DNA of 64,000 bases from Dastarcus helophoroides. Lineage: Eukaryota > Arthropoda > Insecta > Coleoptera > Bothrideridae. Position 1 is the first letter of the stretch. Every line of letters begins with the position of its first letter. The notes below the pieces were generated by a model. That model was given only the letters and a program-made list of their open reading frames with translations. It searched no databases and had not been told where the DNA came from. Below, in pieces: positions 1 through 56,940 of this stretch. The translations under genes were made by a program, and so were the position numbers. The DNA is taken from the NCBI GenBank assembly GCA_028583605.1, contig CM053325.1:41467435-41531434 (forward strand). Direction: 5' to 3'.

Positions 1-602
1 ACAGAATAGCAATTTAGATCTGAAGAGTTTGGTATACCCAGCTGGAACCTAGCAAATGCTCTGGTTGAATGTATTCAACAAAAATTACGAATGTTCTCAA
101 ATGTAATTTGTGGTGACACTGAAACTTTTATGCTATCTGGAGAGAAAAAAAAGGTATGACTGCAATAGTAATTGCAGAAAAATCATCTTGGTGATACCTA
201 CTAAAAAAATATTGTTTCTGATTTGCCAATAATAACACTGGGGAACAATTTGGAACATAATTTCTGTTGCGTTTATTTTTTGGGATTTTTAAAAATTAAT
301 TAGCTATGCTGATTTCAAAACTATCGGTAGTTTTTTCCTACCAAGTCAAGTTTTTTCTTTATATTTTATGTGTATATCCACTCGGTATTCTGCTCTTGAT
401 TAAGAGAAAGTGCATTTTTACAATTTTTACGTTTTTTTTAGTGATGATGGAATTGTATAATGCCATAACATAGAAGGTTTAATAGAAGTGTCGAAAATTT
501 TTGCCTAAAATGCAACTAAATGATCATTTTTATCAGTAACTCAAGCTGAAGATTTAAGGGTGTCTTCCTCCACGACGGACATTTATTTCATGAAATCCTA
601 AT
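1..602. other. AT-rich stretch without recognisable gene
   Basis: I see no coding region or named repeat here. It is interrupted at its right end by the PLE insertion. It may be the upstream part of the decayed multicopy gene that reappears after the PLE near 2660, but I could not align it to that family. Confidence 0.5.
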
Positions 603-4204: not shown

Positions 4205-4800
4205 TTTCAAGCACTGAACTAAACACTGTGGTTTGTTATTAGGTCCAAAGAAGGTTTCACCCCTTTACCACATGGGCAATTAAATAAATAATTACGGGAT
4301 ACGTATTTTGCAAGCAGAACTAGCATTTTTAAGCGTACTTATCTAAAAAGATTAGCAAAGATTCATCGACGTCATTTGCATTAAGATTCAAATCAATACT
4401 GGAGGTCTTTTGCTTCCTTTCCTATTTCTAATTGTTTAACACATCTGGTGCATGCAATTTTGACCAGGCACAAATACCTTCAATAAACTGGAGGCCGCCA
4501 GTGATCCTTTATCTCCGTTAAGGGTCACTGGCCTCTGATTGATGTAATTTGTCTCGTATGCGTCAAGTTCTCTGTTATTTGTGATCGATCTTAACAATTT
4601 TAAATTTTTGATGTTAATTTGTGTCCTTTACTTGTCATATGTAATGCGACACTTGATTTTTCTTCTCTATTGTATCTAAAATGAGCGATATGTTCTTTAA
4701 ATCTGGTTTTAATGGATCTCTTAGTCTGTCCAACATATGATAAATTACAATTGTTACAGCTTATGTCGTAAATTCTGGAATTCCCAAGCTCCCAAGTTCA
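4205..4800 (-). mobile_element. 3' fragment of a PLE-2-family element
   Basis: On the minus strand this matches the 3' end of PLE-2 (about 21130-21700) at high identity. It includes the GIY-YIG coding part (SYVGQTKRSIKTRF, then a KEHIAHFRYNREE segment), a stop at 4372-4374 and the following pLTR down to about 4205. It is severely 5'-truncated and keeps no RT. A short deletion relative to PLE-2 near 4480 shifts the frame, so it is not functional. Confidence 0.8.
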
Positions 4801-6920: not shown

Positions 6921-7143
6921 AATATACAGTGTGTTTCACCGGGAATCGCCGCATTCTGGTAAAATACACTTCTAAAACATTTGAAAATTTGGCAACTTAG
7001 CAAAGTTAGCGAGGTCAATACAACTAAAATATTCGCAAAGTTGTAGTACCTGTCGATGATACCAGAAGTTGACACCAACTTCTTATTTTAAATGGGGCAA
7101 GCTAGATATTTTTGCATTTTTAGATTTTATTTGATATTTTAAC

Positions 7144-7151
7144 ACCACTAT
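7144..7151. repeat. TSD, left copy, of the hammerhead insertion
   Basis: ACCACTAT occurs here and at 7932-7939, flanking the inverted-plus-tandem hammerhead insertion. Confidence 0.65.
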
Positions 7152-7444
7152 ATATGCAAGAAGAATGCAACCTAGACTACAAATTCATGCAGCCCTCCAG
7201 GCGTGTATAGTAAGTAAATCATAGGTAGCTGAACTACCAACAGTTGAAACACTGCCACCTAGCGAAGCGGTTGCTCTCTAGGAGAGTTCCCAGAAGACAA
7301 GGATTCTATAATGCACAGACCAATACGTTTGAACATTTATTAGATTCGAAATTTCTCTATGGACCAATAGGTGGTAGTACTAAAGAGTCACTCGCTTGAC
7401 GCCTGTCAATGTTTTAGTACTTACTTGTCGGAGCATTTATTAGC

Positions 7445-7517
7445 ATTCGAGTTGGATATACCAAACTGACGAGATCTAACAAGATCGAAACCGGTATTTG
7501 GTTTCCAAACTTCGAAT
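7445..7517 (+). ncRNA. Hammerhead ribozyme, family B, copy 1
   Basis: The full core is present: CTGACGA (7466-7472), stem II GATC/GATC with loop TAACAA, then GAAAC (7487-7491), a 2-nt loop and GTA, with predicted cleavage after A7496. Stem III is just A-U and C-G. Stem I pairs ACCAAA before the box with TTTGGT after the cleavage site. After an internal loop, ATTCGA-GTTGG pairs with CCAAAC-TTCGAAT. This is a type I hammerhead with the internal loops needed for tertiary contacts. Activity is inferred. Confidence 0.87.
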
Positions 7518-7819
7518 CTAATAAATGTTCAAACCTATTGGTCTGTGCATTATAGAATCCTTGTCTTCTGGGAACTCTCCTAGAGAGCAACCGCTTCGAT
7601 AGGTGGCAGTGTCAACTGTTGGTAGTTCAGCTACCTATGATTCACTATACACGCCTGGAGGGCTGCATGAATTTGTAGTCTAGGTTGCATTCTTCTTGCA
7701 TACGACATTGTTGGCGATGGCCATAGTTTCTCTATGGACCAATAGGTGGTAGTACTAAAGAGTCACTCGCTTGACGCCTGTGAATGATTTAGTACTTACT
7801 TGTCGGAGTATTTATTAGC

Positions 7820-7892
7820 ATTCGAGTTGGATATACCAAACTGACGAGATCTAACAGGATCGAAACCGGTATTTGGTTTCCAAACTTCGAAT
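7820..7892 (+). ncRNA. Hammerhead ribozyme, family B, copy 2
   Basis: Nearly identical to copy 1, with CTGACGA at 7841-7847, stem II GATC/GATC (7848-7851 with 7858-7861), GAAA at 7862-7865, and predicted cleavage after A7871. The only core-region change is in the stem II loop (TAACAG for TAACAA). Both stem I helices are kept, so the pair would release a 375-nt RNA. Confidence 0.87.
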
Positions 7893-7931
7893 CTAATAAA
7901 TGTTCAAACCTATTGGTCTGTGCATTATAGG

Positions 7932-7939
7932 ACCACTAT
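7932..7939. repeat. TSD, right copy, of the hammerhead insertion
   Basis: ACCACTAT, matching 7144-7151. Confidence 0.65.
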
Positions 7940-7948
7940 TGTATAACA

Positions 7949-8222
7949 AACCTTGTTCTTAAAATTTATAGTTTTTGAGACAACTGGATTTTTATAAAAC
8001 ATTTGACAGATGCAAGGCCCTGCGAAATTATCTGTATCTTTTTCCAGAAACCTGATATTTATTAGTTTCATATTTGGTATGCAAGTAGAATACATGCGAA
8101 ACTATCTTGCACAACTTTCTGATTTCTGGAAAAAGATACAAAGAATTTCGTAGAACTTTGCATCTGTCAAATTTCTCGAAAAAATTTATTTATCTCGAAA
8201 ATTTTAAATTTTAAGAACAATG
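7949..8222. repeat. Palindromic MITE-like repeat
   Basis: Inverted arms at about 7949-8065 and 8103-8222 share TTGTTCTTAAAATTTA, TTTGACAGATGCAA and TATCTTTTTCCAGAAA in mirrored order. No coding sequence. Confidence 0.7.
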
Positions 8223-8329
8223 TTGGTTATCAAAAGTGGCTTTAAGATAGTAAATAAAATTAAGGTGTTTTATTTAAAATAACCAAGTAGGTGTCAGCTT
8301 CCGGTATAACCAGAAGTGCTACATTTCTT

Positions 8330-9499: not shown

Positions 9500-12400
9500 A
9501 GTCGCCCGAGGTAGTACCATATCACGCATCACTAGGAGACGGTGAAATGATGCTGACATCATGTTTCCGTCTTTGACACGTAAGTCGGTTTCTGCTAGTC
9601 TTCTTTCCTTATGCTGTCCTTAATCTTATTTCCTTTTTTCATCTACTCTGATTTTTTCTTCTAATTATTAAAAACAAAAATGATGGATTCTCTTCGTGCA
9701 AAGAATTCCGGACATAAACTATCCTCCCGTTCGGATGTCCGGGTGGAGGGTGTACGAAACAATCCAAGATCGACAGAATATTTTAATGTACCACGGGCCA
9801 AGATTCTTTCAAACAATTCATTCAAAATTCAATTTTGTACCATCCAGGGTCCAAACTCAAATCTAAACTCGGTTCATCAACACTTTCAAAACGAAAGACC
9901 CTATGTGCTGTATCTGACAGAAACCCAAGTCTCCCCATCCATACATTACATTTGCTTTGCTCTAACTATGACTTGCACACAAAATTTTGACACAAGAGGG
10001 GAATTTGTGCTTTTACGCGAAGCGACCTGTCCTGTCAACGAGAAGAAGCACTGGAATCTGCTGATCATAATGTAATTTGGCTGAAAATCTGCTCCAAAAA
10101 CAAAGTAATATTCATTTGTTCACTTTATTTGTCTCCAAACGATCCCTCATACAGACCGCTCTTCTCTTATCTCCCCGTAACCTTTGACCTACAGATAAAT
10201 TATCCAAAAGCTAAGGTTGTCTTTCTCGGTGACTTCAACGTATACAACATCCCCTGGTTAAGGTTTTCTTCCCGAACTGACGACGCGGGAAGGGTGGCAG
10301 AGGCTTTGGTCATCACTTGTGGACTATCGCAATTAGTTGAGGAACCCACAAGAATTTCTAATGTAGATAGAAATCAACCTAATCTACTCGACCTTTTCCT
10401 TACAAATTCACCAAGTTCGTATAAAATGTCCGTGACATCACTGCTTGGAAATTTGACTCACAAGCTTTAAGCAGCCTCTCGCTCGCTTCATATACCACCT
10501 CCTTTCCAGACGCAGTCTTGCAGGGTTTAGCACTTTAACTCTGCAAACTGGGAAAAATTAAGAAAGTTGTTTGCATTTTTTCGATGGCAGAAAGTCTGCT
10601 TTAGCTCAGACAAGGCTTCTTTAGATGCCGAATCCATCACGGAAACTATCCTGATTGGTATGGAATGCTCAATTTTCCACTCCCAAAAGAAGTCTGCCTC
10701 CAGTAAATCTTGGTTCAGTAAAAAATGTGCTCGGGCTCTCTCCTGCAAAAATCGCGCATATCGTAGTTGGTGAAATAATCCCTTAGTCGAGACTCGGACC
10801 ATATTTGTAGTTGCACGAAATTCTTGTAAACAGGTTATTGACGAGGCAAAAGGTGATTTTGATCGTAAAATGCGCCAGAGGCTTATCAACTGTCCGAACG
10901 GTTCCAGGTACTTTTGGGGATTTGCAAAGTCAATTGGAAAGAATTTTAGACCTTCAAATTTTCCACCTTTGCTCGATAAAAATAGCAATATTGCTACTAC
11001 CTCCAAGAAAAAGGCTGACATGTTAGCCTTAATATTTGCTGAACATTCCAATTTTGATTCTGAAAACGCAGAACCTCTTATTTTTCCTAAGGTTGGCACT
11101 GCGATGCCTGAAGTTGGTTTCAGACAACTCACAATCAGGAAGATTCTGCTTGAGCTCGACACCTCGAAAGCGTCTGGCCTTGATGGTATTCCCCCTATTG
11201 ATCCTAAGAAATGCGCCCCAGAGTTGACCCCGGTCCTAAGCAAATTCTTTACACTTTCTTACAACAACATCTGTAAATCTGCTAGAGTGCAGGCTGTCCA
11301 TAAAAAGGGAAAAAGGAATCTAGCTAACAACTATCGCTCAATATATTTGTTACCCGTTATATCCAAAGTGATGGGAAAGGTTATTAACATCGAGATTCTC
11401 AAATATCTGGAGGAAAATAGAATCATCTCCGACAGGCAATACGGTTTTAGACAACAACGTTCCACTGGCGATCTAGTGGTATATGTTACTCATATCTGTA
11501 ACTCAGCTATGGAAAAACATGATGAGGTTAGGATTATGGCATTAGATATCTCAAAGGCTTTCGACAGAGTCTGGCACCGATCTCTTCTCGCCAAATTAAC
11601 ATTTTATGGTCTTTCTCCTAGACTCTGTCATTTGATATCCAGTCTTCTCGCTGACAGATCTCTTCAGGTCGTCGTCGATGGCATCTCATCCGAGACATTT
11701 GCGATTAACGCAGGGGTGTCTTAGGGGTCTGTTTTGTCTCCTACTTTATTTCTGTTTTACATTAACAATCTCTTAGCTTTAACTTCCAATCCTATGTATA
11801 GCTACGCAGATTATGGTAACCTTGTGTCATCTTTTTTCTCCGACAAACCATTATCTATCGCTGCTTCAGATCGACTAAGGGAACAGCAGATGCAGACGAT
11901 TAATAGAGATCTCAAAATTATTCTGAAATGAAGTAAGAACCATTCGGTCGACTTCAACGCTTCAAAAACTCAGACCGCGGTTTTCTCTAAGAAAAGCATC
12001 AAGGGATAATGCAACAAACATACTAATGGACGGTAAAATCCTTCCGATGGGATCTAATCTATCTATCCTAGGAATGAATGCGAGCACTAACTTCTCTTGG
12101 GACGATCATGTGCGCGCCATTGCCAAATTCACCTCTCAGAAGCTAGGCTTTCTTTTTAAAGCTAAAAAGTACTTCACATCTCATCAGCTATCAACACTGT
12201 ACAAAGCTCAAGTTAGGCCAACACTAGAATACTGTTCTCATGTTTGGAGTTCAGCCCCAAAACACGCTTTAACTCTCTTGGATTCAATTAAAAGAAGAGC
12301 GATTCGCCTAATTGATGACGAGAGTCTGACCGATTCTCTCGAAACACTAGAGCACAGCCGTATGGTTGGTGACTTGTCTTTTTTCTACAAGTACTATCAT

Positions 12401-12716
12401 GGAAGATGCTCGCAGGAACTAATAGGATTAATCCCCCCAAGGGCAAGATTCTTGAGGCGCACTAGACAGTCGGAGACAGCAAATTCCTGTGCGGTCCAGC
12501 TTGACACAGTGAGGACTTATGTCTACGAAGACTCTTTTTTTTATAGAACTTCCAAGTTATAAAACTTGTTACCGAAAGAAATTTTCCCCAAAAATTACAC
12601 CTTTCATTGTTTAAGAAGGCGGTTCATCGCCATCTATCCTTGTTTCCGCATCCTACTCGCAGTGCTTTGAAAGCATAATGGGGTTACCCTTTGCGAGTAA
12701 ATTAAACCTAAAAAAA
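9500..12716 (+). mobile_element. Jockey/CR1-like non-LTR retrotransposon (LINE-1)
   Basis: Endonuclease, reverse transcriptase and a C-terminal domain follow one another on the plus strand, ending in a short A-rich tail (about 12700-12716). No upstream ORF1 is visible, so the copy is probably 5'-truncated. The left boundary is uncertain and I found no target-site duplication. The copy is decayed. Confidence 0.75.
9680..12562 (+). pseudogene. LINE-1 ORF2: endonuclease plus reverse transcriptase, broken
   Basis: The reading frame opens at ATG 9680 in an A-rich context. The apurinic-type endonuclease shows FLTET-like (LYLTETQ) near 9915 and the catalytic VFLGDFNVYNIPW segment near 10219, followed by NLLDLFLTN near 10380. 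The RT domain has KASGLDGIPP (11167), NNYRSIYLLPVISKV (11325), QYGFRQQRSTGD (11438) and ALDISKAFDRVWH (11540). An in-frame TAG sits at 11722-11724, in the middle of the usual GVPQGSVLSPTLF motif. The catalytic YADD box reads YADY (about 11801). After another shift the C-terminal part continues at 12026-12562 with YKAQVRPTLEYCSHVW and RRAIRLIDD. Frameshifts also break the endonuclease between 9960 and 10130. It cannot be autonomous. Confidence 0.8.
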
Positions 12717-17949: not shown

Positions 17950-18790
17950 AGTTTCCCCAAAAATTTGAGATTTCGAGGCTCGTAACACAATTACGAAAAG
18001 TGATGAGTAATTTCAAAAATAAAAGGTCGAAAATCAAGGTTAAGGCCAAAATGTAAAGACGATTCTTTATTTGCCTAAATAAGTATTTTTTCCAAATTTT
18101 GTTGTTTCTTTTATATGTTAAAAATGTCTAATTTAAAATTGCAATTTTCACTTCTTATTAAAATTTACACTTTAAACTCGAAACCTAGGCTTTAAAAAAT
18201 ATTCGCCCTTTTCTAGGGATTTGAACTTAATTTTAAATTAGAAAATGTTGAACTCGAATTTTGGTTTCAATAATAAACTCTGGATTTCTAAGATGTTGAT
18301 TCTAAAATGTCGATTTTCTTCTCAAAATTCTGAGTATTATGTAACAATTTCGAAATATCGAGTCAAAAATCCAAAATGCAAACATTTTTATCTCAAATTT
18401 TGTTTATATACCAAATTTTTAATTTTATCTTAAAATTTATACTTTAAGGTCGGTCGAACGTTCTACTCAAAACTGATCTCGTTTTGAGTACAAGAAAATA
18501 TTGTAACGAAATGTAATTATATAATTTAAAATAAAGTGCTTATAATTCAGCAAGTGTTAATCATTCAAACCGATAATGCGGGATACAATATTTAAGTTAA
18601 AAATTTGGACGGAATTTTCAAAAAGAATTAGATTATGAGACAAAAGTCAAAAATTTCAAAAAATAAACTAAAAATTTCAAGAAATAATTAAAATATTTGA
18701 GTTTAAAAATCGAAATCTCAAAGAAAGCATTCAAAGTTTCGTGACTGATGTGAAAATTTAAAGGGATTTTAGGAAAAATGGGAGATTTGA
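17950..18790. repeat. Degenerate AT-rich array, array 1
   Basis: Poorly conserved short words of the type AAAATTTCGA/AAATTTGAG recur in irregular spacing. The same texture fills 39400-41620, 60290-60560 and 61620-62450. It is non-coding. Confidence 0.5.
18502..18587 (+). mobile_element. Internally deleted solo LTR, family L, copy E (86 bp)
   Basis: It starts TGTAACGAAATGTAA, has an AATAAAGTGC segment, then GTGTTAATCATTC and CCGATAATGCGGGATACA. These are the two ends of family L joined, with the promoter half missing. ATAT flanks both sides (18498-18501 and 18588-18591), an intact 4-bp duplication. Confidence 0.75.
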
Positions 18791-20661
18791 GTTAGGCCAA
18801 AATGTCGGGAAAATTCTTTCTGTTATTGCCGGATTATTGGCGACATACGACTCGGAAGATTATGCCCACGCTACTTGATTTTAAAAATGTTTTGTTATGG
18901 GGATGCATTGGGACCCATCGGCGGTACATTTTAAAATTAGTTTCCTAATATACAGGATGTCCCATTCATTAAAGTAACTAGGAGTAAAAATTGTCCGTTT
19001 GAAAATAAGATAGTAACAGCAGCAAAAAAGAAATGACTATATTTAGAAATTAAACGTCATTACACTAATAGAACAAGGCATGAAATTAACTCATACAACT
19101 TGTACAAAAAACTAACATACAAACTCAATGAAGAAGAACACGAAGAATTTAGTGCTTTTCAAAGAATAATGTTTGAAAATATAGAATATAAAATCAAGAA
19201 GAAAATTGAAATTCATGAAAGAAAACTGCAAAATATTTTAAAGTACAAAACACAAAGTAATAAACCCTCTCCTTTGAAAAATACTAACATAGGAGTAAAT
19301 CTCTCTAAACAAGTTTTTAATGCTAAAGAATTAGAACTTTTGAATAAAGGACTTAAATTGAATACACCTTTTGTAAAAGCACCTATCGAACAAATTTGCT
19401 TCGGAATCGAATCGGGAATTTCAAAATTAAATGAACCAAGTAAGAATATAATTAGAGAACAAAGTAAAAAGATTATTGAAACTAACAAAGAATATCGAAT
19501 TAATAGTAACCAGAACCACATAATTAAAAACTTATAAAAGAAAGATTGCTACTATCTGAAAGCAGACAAAGGCAATGAGATTGTTGCATTGGATAAACCT
19601 GATTATAACAATAGAGTAAACAATTTAATTGAAAGTGGACCATATGAGAGAATAGCAAAGAATCCATTACCAGAAATGATTAAAGAATTCAAAGATGCTA
19701 TAAAGAAATGCAACAATCTTATTACCAACCCAATGAAATACAAAATTAACTCTGGTAATCCATCGATCCCCAAATTGTATTGTTTACCAAAAATTCATAA
19801 ACCGGGAAATTCATTGAAACCAATTGTTTCAGGTGTAACCGCACCCACTTACCAATAAGCAAAATGGCTTAACAATGAATTCCTAAAACTTCAGAACAAT
19901 AATGTATCATTTTCAATTAAAAACACCACTGAATTTATAAATAAAATTAAAGATTTGACCTTGTCACCTACAGAAATTCTGGTATCTTTTGATGTAAGTT
20001 CACTTTTTCCCAGCGAACCAATACCCGAAACTTTAAATTATTTAGAAGAACTCTTGACATTCAATCAAATAGACAAAGAAGTAATTTTGGAATATTTAAC
20101 TCTTACTTCATTATGCATGAAACAGAATGTCTTCCAGTTTGACATTAAATTTTACAAACAAACAAATGGTACCACCATGGGAAATCCATTAAGTCCATTT
20201 CTAGCAAATCTTTTCATGGACAATTTTGAACAAGAAATCAAAAATGAATTAATAAACTTTCCTCGAATTTGGATACGATACGTAGACGACATTTTTGCAG
20301 TTTTTGACACCAGTAAATATGAAGTTCAAGATTTCGTTGATAAGTTAAACTCAAAATACAATTCAATTAACTTTACATTTGAAAAAGAAACCAATGGATT
20401 TCTCCCGTTTTTAGATATCTTGGTTATTAGAAATAAAAATACTTTAGAGTTCGATATATACAGAAAAGAAACCAATACAAATCGCTTTATCACAGCTGAT
20501 TCTCATCATTGTCCACAACAGAAATTAGCAAGTATACGTTTTTTAATTAACAGGCTTTTAAATGTTTCTCTAAGTAAATCCAGATATACAAAAGAATTAG
20601 CTTACATTAAAGATGTTGCGATTTTTAATGGTTTTCCCGTAAAAATAGTAAACAGTATGTT

Positions 20662-20673
20662 AAGAAAATGTAG
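20662..20673. repeat. TSD, left copy, of the hammerhead insertion in PLE-2
   Basis: AAGAAAATGTAG, repeated perfectly at 20921-20932. Confidence 0.9.
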
Positions 20674-20920
20674 CATGTAGCGAAAATGTTTGCGTAATAA
20701 ACAGTTAAAAGTCAGTTACAAGTCACCCGATGGAGGTTTGCTCTCTTGGGTACTTATACGACTGACTAACGGCTTTAAATTGGAAGTGTATACAACCACC
20801 GTACCATGCTGACGAGGCCAAGGAAGGCCGAAACTAGTCTATGGTTGCGGTTGTACATATTTTCAATTTTAAGCACGTTTAACTGTTTAATTACAGAACA
20901 TTTAATTGGTCATTTGTCAA
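20674..20920 (+). mobile_element. Retrozyme-like insertion carrying a hammerhead (247 bp)
   Basis: A non-coding insertion splits the PLE-2 ORF and is bounded by perfect 12-bp duplications. It contains one complete type I hammerhead. Its two halves are extensively complementary: AAACAGTTAAA (about 20700) with TTTAACTGTTTAAT (about 20879), and TTAAATTGGAA with TTTCAATTTTAA, nested around the ribozyme. The RNA could thus fold into a long rod. There is no poly(A) tail, no pol III box that I recognise and no ORF. Length, ribozyme and duplications fit animal retrozymes, small circular-RNA-producing elements thought to borrow PLE enzymes. A hammerhead-bearing SINE is the main alternative. Confidence 0.75.
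20791..20855 (+). ncRNA. Hammerhead ribozyme, family C
   Basis: Core elements in order: CTGACGA (20809-20815), stem II GGCC/GGCC (20816-20819 with 20826-20829) with loop AAGGAA, GAAAC (20830-20834), a 2-nt loop TA, then GTC with predicted cleavage after C20839. Stem III is A-U plus C-G. Stem I has an inner helix ACCATG with TATGGT, an internal loop, and an outer 7-bp helix TACAACC with GGTTGTA. Every invariant core position is kept. The arrangement is the same as family B although the helices differ in sequence. Confidence 0.88.
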
Positions 20921-20932
20921 AAGAAAATGTAG
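20921..20932. repeat. TSD, right copy, of the hammerhead insertion in PLE-2
   Basis: AAGAAAATGTAG, matching 20662-20673. Confidence 0.9.
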
Positions 20933-21953
20933 ATTTAATAAAATAATTCAGGATTGCTCTAAGCTTGACCAATCTAAAGATAACACTCCTACAACCGCTG
21001 TGAAATTATCATTTTACCCAAATATCACCAATAAAATTAATAAAGTTCAAACAGAAAACAACGTAAAGGTAGTGTACACAGCCAATAAGAGTCTCCGCAA
21101 TAATTTGGGTAATGCTAAAGATAAATTGGACAAGCTTGAGAATTCCAGAATTTACGAATTAAGTTGTAACAATTGTAATTTATCATATGTTGGACAGACT
21201 AAGAGATCCATTAAAACCAGATTTAAAAAACATATCGCTCATTTCAGATACAATAGAGAAGAAAAATCAAGTGTCGCCCTACATATGATAAGTACAGGAC
21301 ACAAAATTAAAATTGAAAATTTAAAATTGTTAAGATCGGTCACAAATAGTAGAGAACTTGATGCACACGAAACAATTTATATCAATCAGAGGCCAGTTAC
21401 CCTTAACGGAGATAAAGGATCATTGGCGGCCTCTAGTTTATTGAAGGCTATTTGCTATTTGTGGCAGGTCAAAATTGCATGCACCAGATGTGTTAAACAA
21501 TTAGAAATAGGAAAGAAAGCAAAAGACCGCCAGTATCGATTTGAATCTCAATGCAGATGACGTCGGTGAATCTTTTGCTAATCCTTTTAGATTAGTGCGC
21601 TTGAAAATGCCAGTTCTGCTGGCGAAATACGTATCGCGTAATTATTTATTTAATTACCGATGTGTTGGACCAAAATAATGTTAAACATTTTTACAGGTTA
21701 GTGTTCACGTTTTCCTACAAAACAAACATTTTTAAAATTAAGACCGATTTTAACATATTTAATATTTATCAAGTTAGCTATGACCCTCAAAAAAATCGGA
21801 ACCTTCTAAATTACACAGCAGGCTTGAACGGAAAAACAATTGATAATTATTACTTAAAATTATAATATTATGATTAATTTATATTATTAAAATAAAAGAA
21901 TGTTCTAAATACAATAAACATTACTGTTTTCTTTATAAGTTTTTAAAATGGCA

Positions 21954-21967
21954 AACCTCTGACTCTA
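21954..21967. repeat. TSD, left copy, of the PLE terminal fold-back
   Basis: AACCTCTGACTCTA, repeated perfectly at 22580-22593. Confidence 0.85.
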
Positions 21968-22579
21968 CAGGATATACTTCTTCCGGGATTGGACCGTGTC
22001 AAAGAACTACTAAAAGTGTTCGACGTTTCGCCCATCATCGTAGGGGGCTTCTTCAGGAACAAAGAAAAGAAAAATAAACGGAAAGAGGAATATGAGGAAA
22101 TATGCAAAAATGAAAGAATGAAAAGGCCAATTTCAAAACATCAGAGCACGGTAACTCAGTATGTCCACCATACCAGAGGCGAAACTCTTCTGAATTGAAA
22201 ATTGGTACAATGGATAAGAAAGTTTAGAGAGAAGAGCACGGTAACACAGGATATTCACCATACCAGAGGCGAAACTCTTCAGAAGAGTTTCGCCTCTTAT
22301 CCATTGTACCAATTTTAAATTCAGAAGAGTTTCGCCTCTGGTATGATACTGAGTTGCCGTGCTCTGATGTTTTAAAATTGGCCTTTTCATCCTTTCATTT
22401 TGCATATTCCTTCATATTCCCCTTTTCATTTATTTTTCTTTTCTTTGTTTCTGAAGAAGCCCCCTACGATGGTGGGAGAAACATCGAACACTTTTAGTAG
22501 TTATTTGATAAAGTCTAATCCCGGAAGAAGTATATCCTGTACTTACTCTGGCCGTTGAAGCCTTCGTTATCATATTCAG
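21968..22579. mobile_element. Fold-back of two PLE-1 terminal regions, no coding sequence
   Basis: The left half (21968 to about 22280) is the PLE-1 tail in minus orientation and the right half (about 22281-22579) is the same tail in plus orientation. Each half holds the CAGAAGAGTTTCGCCTC unit and a hammerhead-like family A core (minus: about 22010-22055; plus: about 22445-22490, there mutated to GAGAAACATC). The whole is bounded by a perfect 14-bp duplication, so it inserted as a unit. It may have arisen by inverted (twin-primed) retrotransposition of a PLE terminus. Confidence 0.8.
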
Positions 22580-23760: not shown

Positions 23761-25891
23761 CAGGGTGTTTCATAATTGCATGCTGAACCGGCTGGAGGAT
23801 ATTCCTTGGGCAATTTAAGACAAAATTTTCATATTAACATAGGTCCGGAAACGCTTCATTTTCGATATACAGGGCGGTAAAAATTGAAGAAAAAATCGGT
23901 TTTTCTTCAATATTTCTGAGACTGGTTTAGATATTTTTTTGATATTCAGTACACGATATCTGGGTATAAAAGCAAGTATTTTGACAAAAAAACATTTGTT
24001 CTCATTCCACCAGTGGCGTTCCCACAAACAGGTCGATACGCATTTTTGAAAAAAAAATGTGACGCCAATGCTATTTTTCAAAATAAGAAATATTTTCCTA
24101 GTTTTTGTTGTGTTTCTATCAAAAATGAGCTTTTGATTTTTTGTCCTACGATGGCCGGTTTCCGAATTAAAAAATAAAAATCATTTACTTGCTATGCCTC
24201 TATGGTAGATTAATTTAATAATGAAATCTTAACAATGAAATTAATTAAATCATATCAGGTGTTGAAAATGTCCACCACCTGCAAGTATGCACGCCTCAAC
24301 TCTTCTTCTCATAGATTCGCGTACTCGTTGAAAAATTCTTGGCGTATTTCTTATAGTGTTGCAGGACTCTGTTATGCGATTTCTCAGTTCTTCTTCAGTT
24401 TGGATTGGGGTGCTATAAACTAAGGTTTTAAGATAGCCCCATAAAAAATAATCTAGACTGTTCAGGTCAGGGAATCTAGGCGGCCATAATTCTGTTCCTG
24501 CTCTGCCTATCCAGCGATTATTGTAATTTTGGTCCAAATATGCACGTGGCAAAACACTTAAATGCGCAGGGGCACCATCGTGCATAAACCACATTCGATT
24601 TCGGATTAAAACGGGGACATCTTCTAACAGCACTGGTAAATCATTTTCAAGAAAGTGACGATAATTTTCTCCATTTAATCTTCTTAGCAGAAAAAAGGGT
24701 CCAATTAAATAGTCGTCAACAATTCCTGCCCACACATTTACCCAGAATTGTTCTTGGTGATTGACTTCGACCATGGCATGCGGGTCCTCTTCAGCCCAAA
24801 AGTGATTGTTGTGGAAGTTTCTAATTGCATTTCGGGAAAAACTGGCTTCATCAGTAAATAGTACTTCTCTGTCAAATAGTGGATTTTCAATAATTTTTTG
24901 AATAAACCATTGGCAGAAATTTATACGAAATGGTAAATCCCGAGGCAGTAAGGCCTGAACCCGTTGAATATGGTAAGGGTATAACAAAAAATCGTGAAGT
25001 ATCCTCCAGACTAAAATATGGGAGATATTTAAATTACTAGCAATTTTCCTTGTGCTTATTTCGGGATTTTGCTCAACTGAATTAAGAGCAGCTATTTCAG
25101 TTTCTTCTGTTCTTGCGGTTCTTTGTGCCCCTTTTAAGTGATGATCGGGTTTAAAACATCCCTTCTCGCGTAGTCTTCTATGAACGCTTGAAAAAGTTCT
25201 TGCATCTGGCACAATTCTTTGCGGAAAACGCTCTGCATACAGTCGCCTGGCTTCAAATGCATTTCCATCCACAAGACCGTACATGTAATGAATATCGGCA
25301 AACTCAGCATTCTCAAACATATTTTCTTATACTTATCAATCACTCACATTCAGATAAAGTATTTAAGTGAAAAATTTGACACTTTGGTTGTAAACACAAA
25401 ACTAAATCTCAGTGGCCTACTAGATTTTCATTAATAAATTAATCTACCACAGCGGCATAGCAAGTAAATGATTTTTATTTTTTAATTCGGAAACCGTCCG
25501 TCATAGGACAAAAAGTCAAGAGCTCATTTTTGATAGAAACACAACAAAGACTAGGAAAATAATTCTTATTTTAAAAAATAGCATTGGCGTCACATTTTTT
25601 TTTTCAAAAATGTGTATCGACCTGTTTGTGGGAACCCACTGGTGGAATGAGAACAAATGTTTTTTTGTCAAAATACTTGCTTTTATACCCAGATATCGTG
25701 TACTGAATATCAAAAAATATCTAAACCAGTCTCAGAAATATTGAAGAAAAACCGATTTTTTCTTCAATTTTTACCGCCCTGTATATCGAAAATGAAGCGT
25801 TTCCGAACCTATGTTAATATGAAAATTTTGTCTTAAAATTGCCCAAGGAATATCCCCCTGCCGGTTCAGCATGCAATTATGAAACACCCTG
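23761..25891 (-). mobile_element. Complete mariner-type transposon (2131 bp) with long inverted repeats
   Basis: The ends CAGGGTGTTTCATAATTGCA and the inverse at 25872-25891 are preceded and followed by TA (23759-23760, 25892-25893), the Tc1/mariner target duplication. Inverted repeats extend about 465 bp at each side (to about 24225 and from about 25427) with few differences. Between them lies one uninterrupted transposase gene on the minus strand. This is the best-preserved autonomous-looking element in the window. Confidence 0.9.
24250..25320 (-). CDS. Mariner-type DDD transposase, 356 aa, apparently intact
   Basis: It would cut out and reinsert the surrounding element at TA sites. The N-terminus (about residues 1-55) is a helix-turn-helix of the type seen in insect transposase-like proteins (DUF4817-like), with HYMYGLVDGNA. 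A second DNA-binding region with STRKIASNLNISHILVWRIL lies at about 89-108. The catalytic residues read as D157 (LFTDEAS), D248 (FMHDGAPAH) and D290 (DLNSLDYFLWG). The last two are separated by 41 residues, giving a DD41D pattern as in rosa-like families. The motif before the third D reads PPRFPD where PPRSPD is usual. Start is ATG at 25318-25320. Length is normal for the superfamily. No stops or frameshifts interrupt it, and both inverted repeats are present. Whether it is active is unknown. Confidence 0.9.
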   Translation of the reverse strand: MFENAEFADIHYMYGLVDGNAFEARRLYAERFPQRIVPDARTFSSVHRRLREKGCFKPDHHLKGAQRTARTEETEIAALNSVEQNPEISTRKIASNLNISHILVWRILHDFLLYPYHIQRVQALLPRDLPFRINFCQWFIQKIIENPLFDREVLFTDEASFSRNAIRNFHNNHFWAEEDPHAMVEVNHQEQFWVNVWAGIVDDYLIGPFFLLRRLNGENYRHFLENDLPVLLEDVPVLIRNRMWFMHDGAPAHLSVLPRAYLDQNYNNRWIGRAGTELWPPRFPDLNSLDYFLWGYLKTLVYSTPIQTEEELRNRITESCNTIRNTPRIFQRVRESMRRRVEACILAGGGHFQHLI

Positions 25892-56469: not shown

Positions 56470-56640
56470 ATTGGAGCTGATAGAGCACTGAACTAAATAT
56501 TGTGGTTTATGATTATGACCAAAGAAGGTTGTATCCCTTTACCATATCGACAATTAATAAATAGTTAGGCGATACATTCATTGCCAATGTAATAAAGAGC
56601 TAAAACTCCTTTCGATTTATTGGAGCTATTACATAGTTTC
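56470..56640 (-). repeat. Degenerate PLE-2-type terminal fragment
   Basis: GCACTGAACTAAATATTGTGG and ACCAAAGAAGG...CCCTTTACCA match 4212-4275 in the same order. Coding part absent. Confidence 0.6.
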
Positions 56641-56729
56641 TTCTATAGTCCAAAGGTTATACATAGAAATTAAATTCGGAAACATTTGTAATTTTATAGA
56701 ACCGCGACGAGTGTATTTTTTTTTGTTAC

Positions 56730-56940
56730 ATTCTAGTTGGATATACTAAACTGACGCAATCGCACATGATGGAAAATGTCAAATGTTCAAACCTGTTGAT
56801 TCGTCATATTAAAATAAAGTTTTTTAACGTTATTGCCAGTTTTTTGCTTCTGTTGAACGTAAGTGTTATTAGTTTTGCTACTAGAAGGTTCCCCACACAC
56901 GTTTAGAGGGCTGCGTTATTGCAATCCAGGTTTGTTTTGT
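56730..56940 (+). repeat. Degenerate copy of the family B hammerhead element
   Basis: TCTAGTTGGATATACTAAACTGACG matches the 5' stem I strand and core of family B. The core reads CTGACGC, and the 3' strand of stem I is deleted. Downstream, GAGGGCTGC and TTGCAATCCAGGTTTG-like words match 7660-7690. It is a dead relic. Confidence 0.6.

Follow-up and report, generated by a model that had tools for sequence, protein, structure and literature searches.

A short non-coding segment, RZ-A, interrupts the coding region of a Penelope-like element (PLE-2), and this locus raises the questions of what kind of element RZ-A is and whose enzyme placed it there. All positions below refer to the whole stretch of DNA that was analysed, 64,000 nucleotides in length (the window). 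The features of the locus are these:

19037–20680, plus strand: left part of PLE-2, an upstream part and the reverse transcriptase (RT) in one frame (RVT_1, 5.4e-14).
20662–20673, no strand: left copy of the RZ-A target-site duplication (AAGAAAATGTAG), an exact 12-bp repeat.
20674–20920, plus strand: RZ-A, a putative retrozyme unit of 247 bp, non-coding, between the 12-bp duplications.
20794–20853, plus strand: predicted type I hammerhead of RZ-A, cleavage predicted after 20839 (core scan; sub-threshold match to HH9, 22.7 bits; covariation).
20883–21560, plus strand: right part of PLE-2, with a weak GIY-YIG match.
20921–20932, no strand: right copy of the RZ-A target-site duplication (AAGAAAATGTAG), an exact 12-bp repeat.

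A preliminary description of this DNA had proposed a non-coding insertion of 247 bp with perfect 12-bp duplications, and the ends at 20662–20673 and 20921–20932 bear this out. None of 2000 random point pairs in the window had an exact direct repeat of at least 12 bases within 8 bases of both points. The accompanying claim that removal of the insertion rejoins the PLE-2 frame holds over the junction, where omission of 259 bp (RZ-A plus one duplication) gives a single open frame; RZ-A is a case in which a coding frame delimits an insertion exactly. The claim does not hold further upstream, where stops ending at 19537 and 19858 interrupt the same frame, so that this copy of PLE-2 is broken for other reasons too. 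The final 7 bases of the left part and the initial 38 bases of the right part fall inside RZ-A. The GIY-YIG match of the right flank (E 0.0016, 19.1 bits) lies below the Pfam cut-off of 22.6, and at E 0.001 this flank had no Pfam domain match. A PDB search with the RT piece gave weak RT matches (best E 0.003). The two flanks are 43% and 29% identical to PLE-1, the other PLE of the window. The RT ORF and the C-terminal ORF of PLE-1 (605–2168) overlap in different frames, and a six-frame view of 1–720 revealed no recognisable N-terminal part.

RZ-A has no stop-to-stop ORF of at least 60 aa wholly within it and no RT or endonuclease ORF. There is no second, tandem or inverted copy of it in the 64-kb window, and BLAST of RZ-A against the window detected no direct repeat (LTR) at its ends. 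A DNA transposon was rejected, as the two ends are not inverted repeats of one another. The preliminary description had named a pol III promoter and a poly(A) tail, as in an ordinary SINE, as evidence against a retrozyme. In the RZ-A copy we found no B box and no poly(A) or simple-repeat tail beyond four A's spanning the right junction; an A-box match is present on the plus strand (20678), and the minus strand has a relaxed one (20806).

The predicted hammerhead comprises CTGACGA at 20809, a stem II of GGCC/GGCC with loop AAGGAA, GAAA, the tetraloop CUAG, TC, and a stem I built in two parts, with U16.1 and C17 at 20838–20839; these include the invariant hammerhead bases. The invariant core and the cleavage position after 20839 are the same as those read previously. 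In place of the earlier drawing of stem III, two pairs with a 2-nt loop, we prefer a single A-U pair closed by the palindromic tetraloop CUAG (in ACUAGU). The ribozyme was found on the plus strand only, and its predicted cut site is internal, 166 bases from the left end of RZ-A and 81 from the right.

A core scan (stem II of at least 4 pairs, stem I of at least 5 pairs, stem III free) returned three sites in the window, two of which belong to copies of a single unit; the background was 31 matches in 2911 first-order Markov windows, or about 0.01 per window. No Rfam family reached its gathering score anywhere in the window. The best Rfam model for RZ-A, and for the two further ribozymes described below, was HH9 (RF02275), whose stem III is longer than the one here; RZ-A scored 22.7 bits (E 0.038 for 6 kb) against a cut-off of 52. 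The covariance-model hit whose absence had been named as evidence against the ribozyme was thus obtained below threshold only, and read strictly this result goes against it.

The window contains a second candidate retrozyme family, RZ-B, the parts of which are as follows:

7144–7151, no strand: left copy of the RZ-B target-site duplication (ACCACTAT), read at the repeat boundaries.
7152–7931, plus strand: RZ-B, an inverted partial, a full and a partial copy of a 375-nt unit, found by self-comparison.
7153–7354, minus strand: inverted partial copy, the reverse complement of 7507–7702 at 95% identity.
7352–7726, plus strand: full direct unit of 375 nt, with a hammerhead at 7451–7510 and cleavage predicted after 7496.
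7727–7930, plus strand: partial direct unit, with a hammerhead at 7826–7885 and cleavage predicted after 7871.
7932–7939, no strand: right copy of the RZ-B target-site duplication (ACCACTAT), read at the repeat boundaries.

The unit length of 375 nt follows from the direct repeat of 7352–7555 at 7727–7930 (98% alike, 4 mismatches in 204), and the direct copies run uninterrupted for 1.54 units. In the inverted pair, 196 bases align with 3 mismatches, and there are 6 gap columns besides. Given this similar divergence, all three pieces may well be of one age, which is compatible with one event. The 8-bp duplication, weak alone (a chance direct repeat of at least 8 bases within 8 bases has a base rate of 0.014), falls at most 1 base from both homology ends. 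At the internal junction the start of the direct copy and the end of the inverted copy overlap by 3 bases (TTT, 7352–7354), and AAA at 7507–7509 reads as able to pair with the end of the RZ-B cDNA. RZ-B contains no RT or endonuclease ORF, nor any ORF of at least 110 aa, and its right end has no poly(A), A-rich or simple-repeat tail. Its hammerheads, found on the plus strand only, score 34.4 bits (full unit) and 31.0 bits (partial unit) with HH9, both below the cut-off of 52, and their one-pair stem III is closed by the palindromic loop CCGG (ACCGGU).

Half of the ten plus-strand matches to the pol III B box (GWTCRANNC) in the window lie within RZ-B (7483, 7527, 7858 and 7902) or RZ-C, a relative described below (56785); at 7483 and 7858 the match is GATCGAAAC of the ribozyme itself. 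The A/B box pair with an A-rich tail that is expected of a SINE is not found in RZ-A, RZ-B is without the A-rich tail, and ARAGORN (bacterial setting) detected no tRNA relation. An inverted repeat (86%) flanks RZ-B at 7059–7093 and 8272–8307, and a 74% self-complementary stretch lies near it at 7933–8239; RZ-B seems, from these repeats, to sit within a palindromic, MITE-like element.

In an alignment of the RZ-A ribozyme with the two of RZ-B (three sequences from two lineages, two of them 98% alike, with a structure chosen after both families had been viewed), 15 pairs could be compared, and 45 of 45 cells form standard pairs. In seven of the 15 pairs both partners have changed and still pair; four of these seven lie in outer stem I. 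Neither value was matched in 500 shuffles, and structures slid along the alignment give at most one such pair. We regard this covariation as stronger support for the predicted ribozymes than the Rfam scores. In both families the ribozyme has a stem I internal loop, a loop II of 6 bases and a tetraloop on stem III. Beyond the ribozyme, no significant likeness links RZ-A and RZ-B (P 0.40, 0.19 and 0.74; 2000 shuffles each); the whole-stretch score of 40, against a shuffle maximum of 36, includes the ribozyme. A common body (AGTCAC-CG and GTACTTA in the same order) was considered and rejected, being not significant outside the ribozyme. As RZ-A shares nothing significant with RZ-B beyond the ribozyme, the earlier suggestion of a new family is fair within this window.

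Two further pieces are related to the RZ-B unit:

14–61, minus strand: short RZ-B-like piece left of PLE-1, 78% over 49 bases.
56632–56932, plus strand: RZ-C, a decayed relative of the RZ-B unit, with a degenerate ribozyme at 56736–56792.

The alignment of RZ-C with the RZ-B unit covers 340 positions of the latter and scores 103; the highest score among 100 single-base shuffles was 41. Its ribozyme scores 16.0 bits (E 0.0063) with a model, R1, that was built from the three RZ-A and RZ-B ribozymes and whose top three matches are therefore by construction. RZ-C alone was kept from twelve further R1 matches; the other eleven (E 0.44 to 4.9) were taken as chance. It has no Rfam match and no flanking duplication of at least 7 bases in the stretches compared. 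The piece at 14–61 has E 4.9e-4 in the window, and its score is attained by none of 300 shuffles. A longer likeness of RZ-C to the left end of the window (score 59) is weak, being attained by 2 of 300 single-base shuffles, so of the left-end likeness only the 14–61 piece stands. The RZ-B direct copy (7347–7354) and RZ-C (56632) start within about 5 nt of one unit position, a common start that could reflect an RT stop, an RNA 5′ end or chance.

RZ-A is exceptionally well paired. Its linear fold, computed on 20676–20922 (offset by 2 from the unit), has an energy of −89.1 kcal/mol, against −53.9 ± 4.3 for dinucleotide shuffles (z −8.1; 0 of 200 as low), in keeping with the self-complementarity that had been noticed nearly from end to end. 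The circular fold of 20674–20920 gives z −7.7 with 75% of bases paired, and that of the RZ-B unit z −7.1 (100 shuffles each). The GC contents of RZ-A (0.389) and the RZ-B unit (0.424) are both above that of the window (0.319). Over 61 nt of RZ-A, the hammerhead fold as drawn has an energy of −8.1 kcal/mol, against −21.6 for the minimum-energy fold of the same piece; the drawn fold is not optimised, and nearest-neighbour energies give no credit to the ribozyme's own contacts. For both families the minimum-energy fold contains a false four-pair helix that occupies three bases of the CUGA core (C, U and G); this modelled helix would count against activity of the predicted ribozymes.

The metazoan non-LTR retrozymes described in PMC7229834 have a type I hammerhead with a structured stem I, non-coding units of 170–400 nt, GC below 45–50%, highly self-paired sequences, duplications of more than 4 bp, no LTR, and tandem copies. 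RZ-A and RZ-B resemble them in their type I hammerhead, with structured stem I and sub-threshold in Rfam; in their non-coding units of 247 and 375 nt, inside that range; in low GC and strong self-pairing (z −8.1, −7.7 and −7.1); in duplications of 12 and 8 bp, above 4 bp; and in the presence of PLEs in the same genome. They differ in that RZ-A is a single monomer in the window and not tandem, and that RZ-B carries a fused inverted partial copy; the direct copies of RZ-B amount to 1.54 units. The word "inverted" does not occur in the main text of PMC7229834, and a literature search, with few queries aimed at inversion, turned up no account of retrozymes with fused inverted copies. Reports of retrozyme-like repeats include insects and crustaceans (PMC7229834) and, as a putative case, a tick (PMC4918200). 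RZ-A is best read, from its sequence, as an animal (non-LTR) retrozyme caught in the body of a PLE; this had been the preliminary reading, which gains support from hammerhead type, unit size, self-pairing and duplication length, all matching those given in PMC7229834. It is best filed as a putative new family, within this window, of the known animal non-LTR retrozymes.

One of the ribozymes in PMC7229834, HHR_Amex1 from an axolotl retrozyme, has a stem III of one pair with a palindromic tetraloop, a form shared by RZ-A (CUAG) and RZ-B (CCGG); the repeat length of that element is 330 bp, as compared with 247 for RZ-A and 375 for RZ-B. Cleavage by HHR_Amex1 reached 6% in one hour for the monomer and was much more efficient for the dimer (PMC7229834); by analogy, RZ-A would be expected to cut weakly as a monomer and better as a dimer.

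The best explanation as a whole, which we consider likely, is that RZ-A is a non-autonomous animal retrozyme reverse-transcribed from RNA by another element's enzyme; for insertion by reverse transcription as such our confidence is high. Because RZ-A holds its cleavage site intact and internal, a linear monomer cut at this position was not the template, and a circle, or an uncut or tandem transcript, would fit. RZ-B likewise needs a circle or an uncut or tandem template, since its direct copies continue unbroken for 1.54 units. In the model given in PMC7229834, repeats are transcribed, the hammerhead cuts, an RNA ligase circularises the product, and a borrowed RT copies the circle. Applied to RZ-A, the RNA would be made by read-through or from tandem copies and cut by the hammerhead, probably as a dimer formed via the palindrome ACUAGU. 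A host ligase would then close the cut RNA into a circle, and the enzyme of another element would reverse-transcribe it at a nicked target; judged from the layout of RZ-B, this enzyme may well be a PLE reverse transcriptase/GIY-YIG endonuclease.

The case for a PLE comes from RZ-B. A Penelope insert described in PMC3846280 has two direct copies, an inverted partial copy placed head to head on the 5′ side, and a duplication of 8 bp, and one insert of Penelope layout carried foreign cargo. RZ-B has the same layout, with retrozyme units replacing the pseudo-LTRs (pLTRs) and an 8-bp duplication, while the junction overlap is 3 bp in RZ-B and 15 bp in the Pen2a_Av example (PMC3846280); unlike Penelope inserts, neither RZ-B nor RZ-A has an RT or endonuclease ORF. 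RZ-B could have arisen by rolling reverse transcription through 1.54 turns, after which the cDNA 3′ end would snap back on a 3-base match (TTT at 7352–7354, AAA at 7507–7509), about 200 bases would be copied back, and closure would occur with an 8-bp duplication. This inverted and partially tandem layout with a short duplication is shown by RZ-B and not by RZ-A. It supports, without proving, that PLEs move retrozymes. RZ-A alone is silent on the matter, as it has no tandem or inverted copy and its 12-bp duplication suits a LINE equally. Other Penelope inserts in PMC3846280 have no duplication or direct pLTRs only, so the layout is common but not fixed.

PMC7229834 proposes PLEs as partners because both share type I hammerheads and tandem copies and co-occur, and PMC7761336 describes the metazoan repeats as showing no motif that betrays the partner element. 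Against a PLE stands the report in PMC11167929 that a template of the Anolis PLE must contain the first 172 nt of that element's ORF, a segment for which, as such, RZ-A and RZ-B have no room. That retrozymes are moved by a PLE is thus a tentative attribution, which we place a little below an even chance. The fuller proposal, in which Penelope-like RT/GIY-YIG enzymes integrate animal retrozymes in trans on circular ribozyme RNA, we put forward with the same reserve, as slightly more open to doubt than to belief. If true, retrozymes would be to PLEs as SINEs are to LINEs. Junction architecture is a possible mark of the partner enzyme; should the pattern recur across many copies, it would amount to a novel type of evidence. 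What to count in retrozyme-rich genomes can be seen from RZ-B, which makes the partner question testable from assemblies alone.

A LINE is the main competitor for this role. It would move retrozymes in trans by target-primed reverse transcription, as for SINEs, and the RZ-B inversion would be a rare snap-back or twin-priming product; we regard this as a plausible reading, and on balance a doubtful one. Duplications of 12 and 8 bp lie within the LINE range, so those of RZ-A and RZ-B are compatible with it, and the window holds a LINE with endonuclease and RT matches (9665–12562). However, the right ends of RZ-A (beyond four A's) and RZ-B carry no poly(A) or simple-repeat tail, and RZ-B has the complete PLE-like layout. 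Twin priming, moreover, inverts without duplicating, whereas the inverted piece of RZ-B duplicates a segment. In favour of a LINE, the retrozyme repeats of Nematostella have 15-bp duplications that were likened to LINE ones (PMC4918200). Another reading takes RZ-B, and perhaps RZ-A too, for solo pLTRs belonging to an autonomous PLE family and not for independent retrozymes; we consider it unlikely. PLE pLTRs bear type I hammerheads and occur in inverted and direct sets (PMC11167929, PMC3846280), RZ-B shows such an inverted and direct layout, and the RZ-B-like piece at 14–61 is inverted about 540 bases left of the PLE-1 RT frame, a plausible place for an inverted pLTR. The ribozymes themselves share the type I core and the retroelement link with the pLTR hammerheads of PMC11167929, but PLE hammerheads are described in PMC7761336 as minimal forms that lack nucleotides of helix III or contacts between loops, and those of RZ-A and RZ-B are not minimal, having a stem I internal loop, a loop II and a stem III tetraloop. 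In the PLE flanks compared (1–604, 2169–2700, 18300–19036 and 21561–22200), RZ-A is represented by an 18-base match only (E 0.009) and RZ-B by the 14–61 piece only, and the lack of an ORF of at least 110 aa inside RZ-B also speaks against a pLTR.

The two remaining alternatives concern RZ-A, and both are far less probable. A rod-like fold, a circle-sized unit and a hammerhead would suit the view that an exogenous circular RNA of viroid-like or delta-like type was copied into DNA, which we judge very improbable: the ribozyme is present in one polarity only (plus), RZ-A is without an ORF of 60 aa, and three loci of two families, one of them decayed, within 64 kb are as for a resident element. 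Neither exact core, of RZ-A or of RZ-B, has a match in the viral contigs of IMG/VR. The RZ-A core likewise has none in prokaryote contigs; these scans are uninformative for an animal genome and may not include the genome from which the window comes. A spliceosomal PLE intron of 247 bp, whose direct repeat and hammerhead-like motif arose by chance, is scarcely credible as a reading of RZ-A. PLEs can contain introns (PMC3846280), and six GT-AG pairs keep the frame open, including 20677–20923 and 20677–20896. A perfect 12-bp repeat at the exact ends, covarying stems and a fold of z −8 are unexpected for an intron, however, and the duplications and the ribozyme make one unlikely. The pairs 20677–20923 and 20677–20896 would allow most of RZ-A to be removed in frame, should PLE-2 be transcribed.

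Several other elements occur in the window. The LINE remnants at 9665–12562 comprise an Exo_endo_phos_2 endonuclease match and RVT_1 over several ORFs. A long open frame on the minus strand (24250–25326) encodes a transposase with DUF4817 and sub-threshold DDE_3 and Tc3-type HTH matches; DUF4817 with DDE_3 would hint at an arthropod. A repeat family of about 90 bp lies 3′ of both PLEs, tandem at 2215–2440 and palindromic at 22107–22401, the latter with an Rfam match below threshold only (MIR6217). A separate short repeat occurs at 4210–4302, at 56484–56575 and, on the minus strand, at 21628–21664, with 83% and 92% identity between places; the copy at 56484–56575 is just upstream of RZ-C, and the piece at 21628–21664 is just behind the PLE-2 frame.
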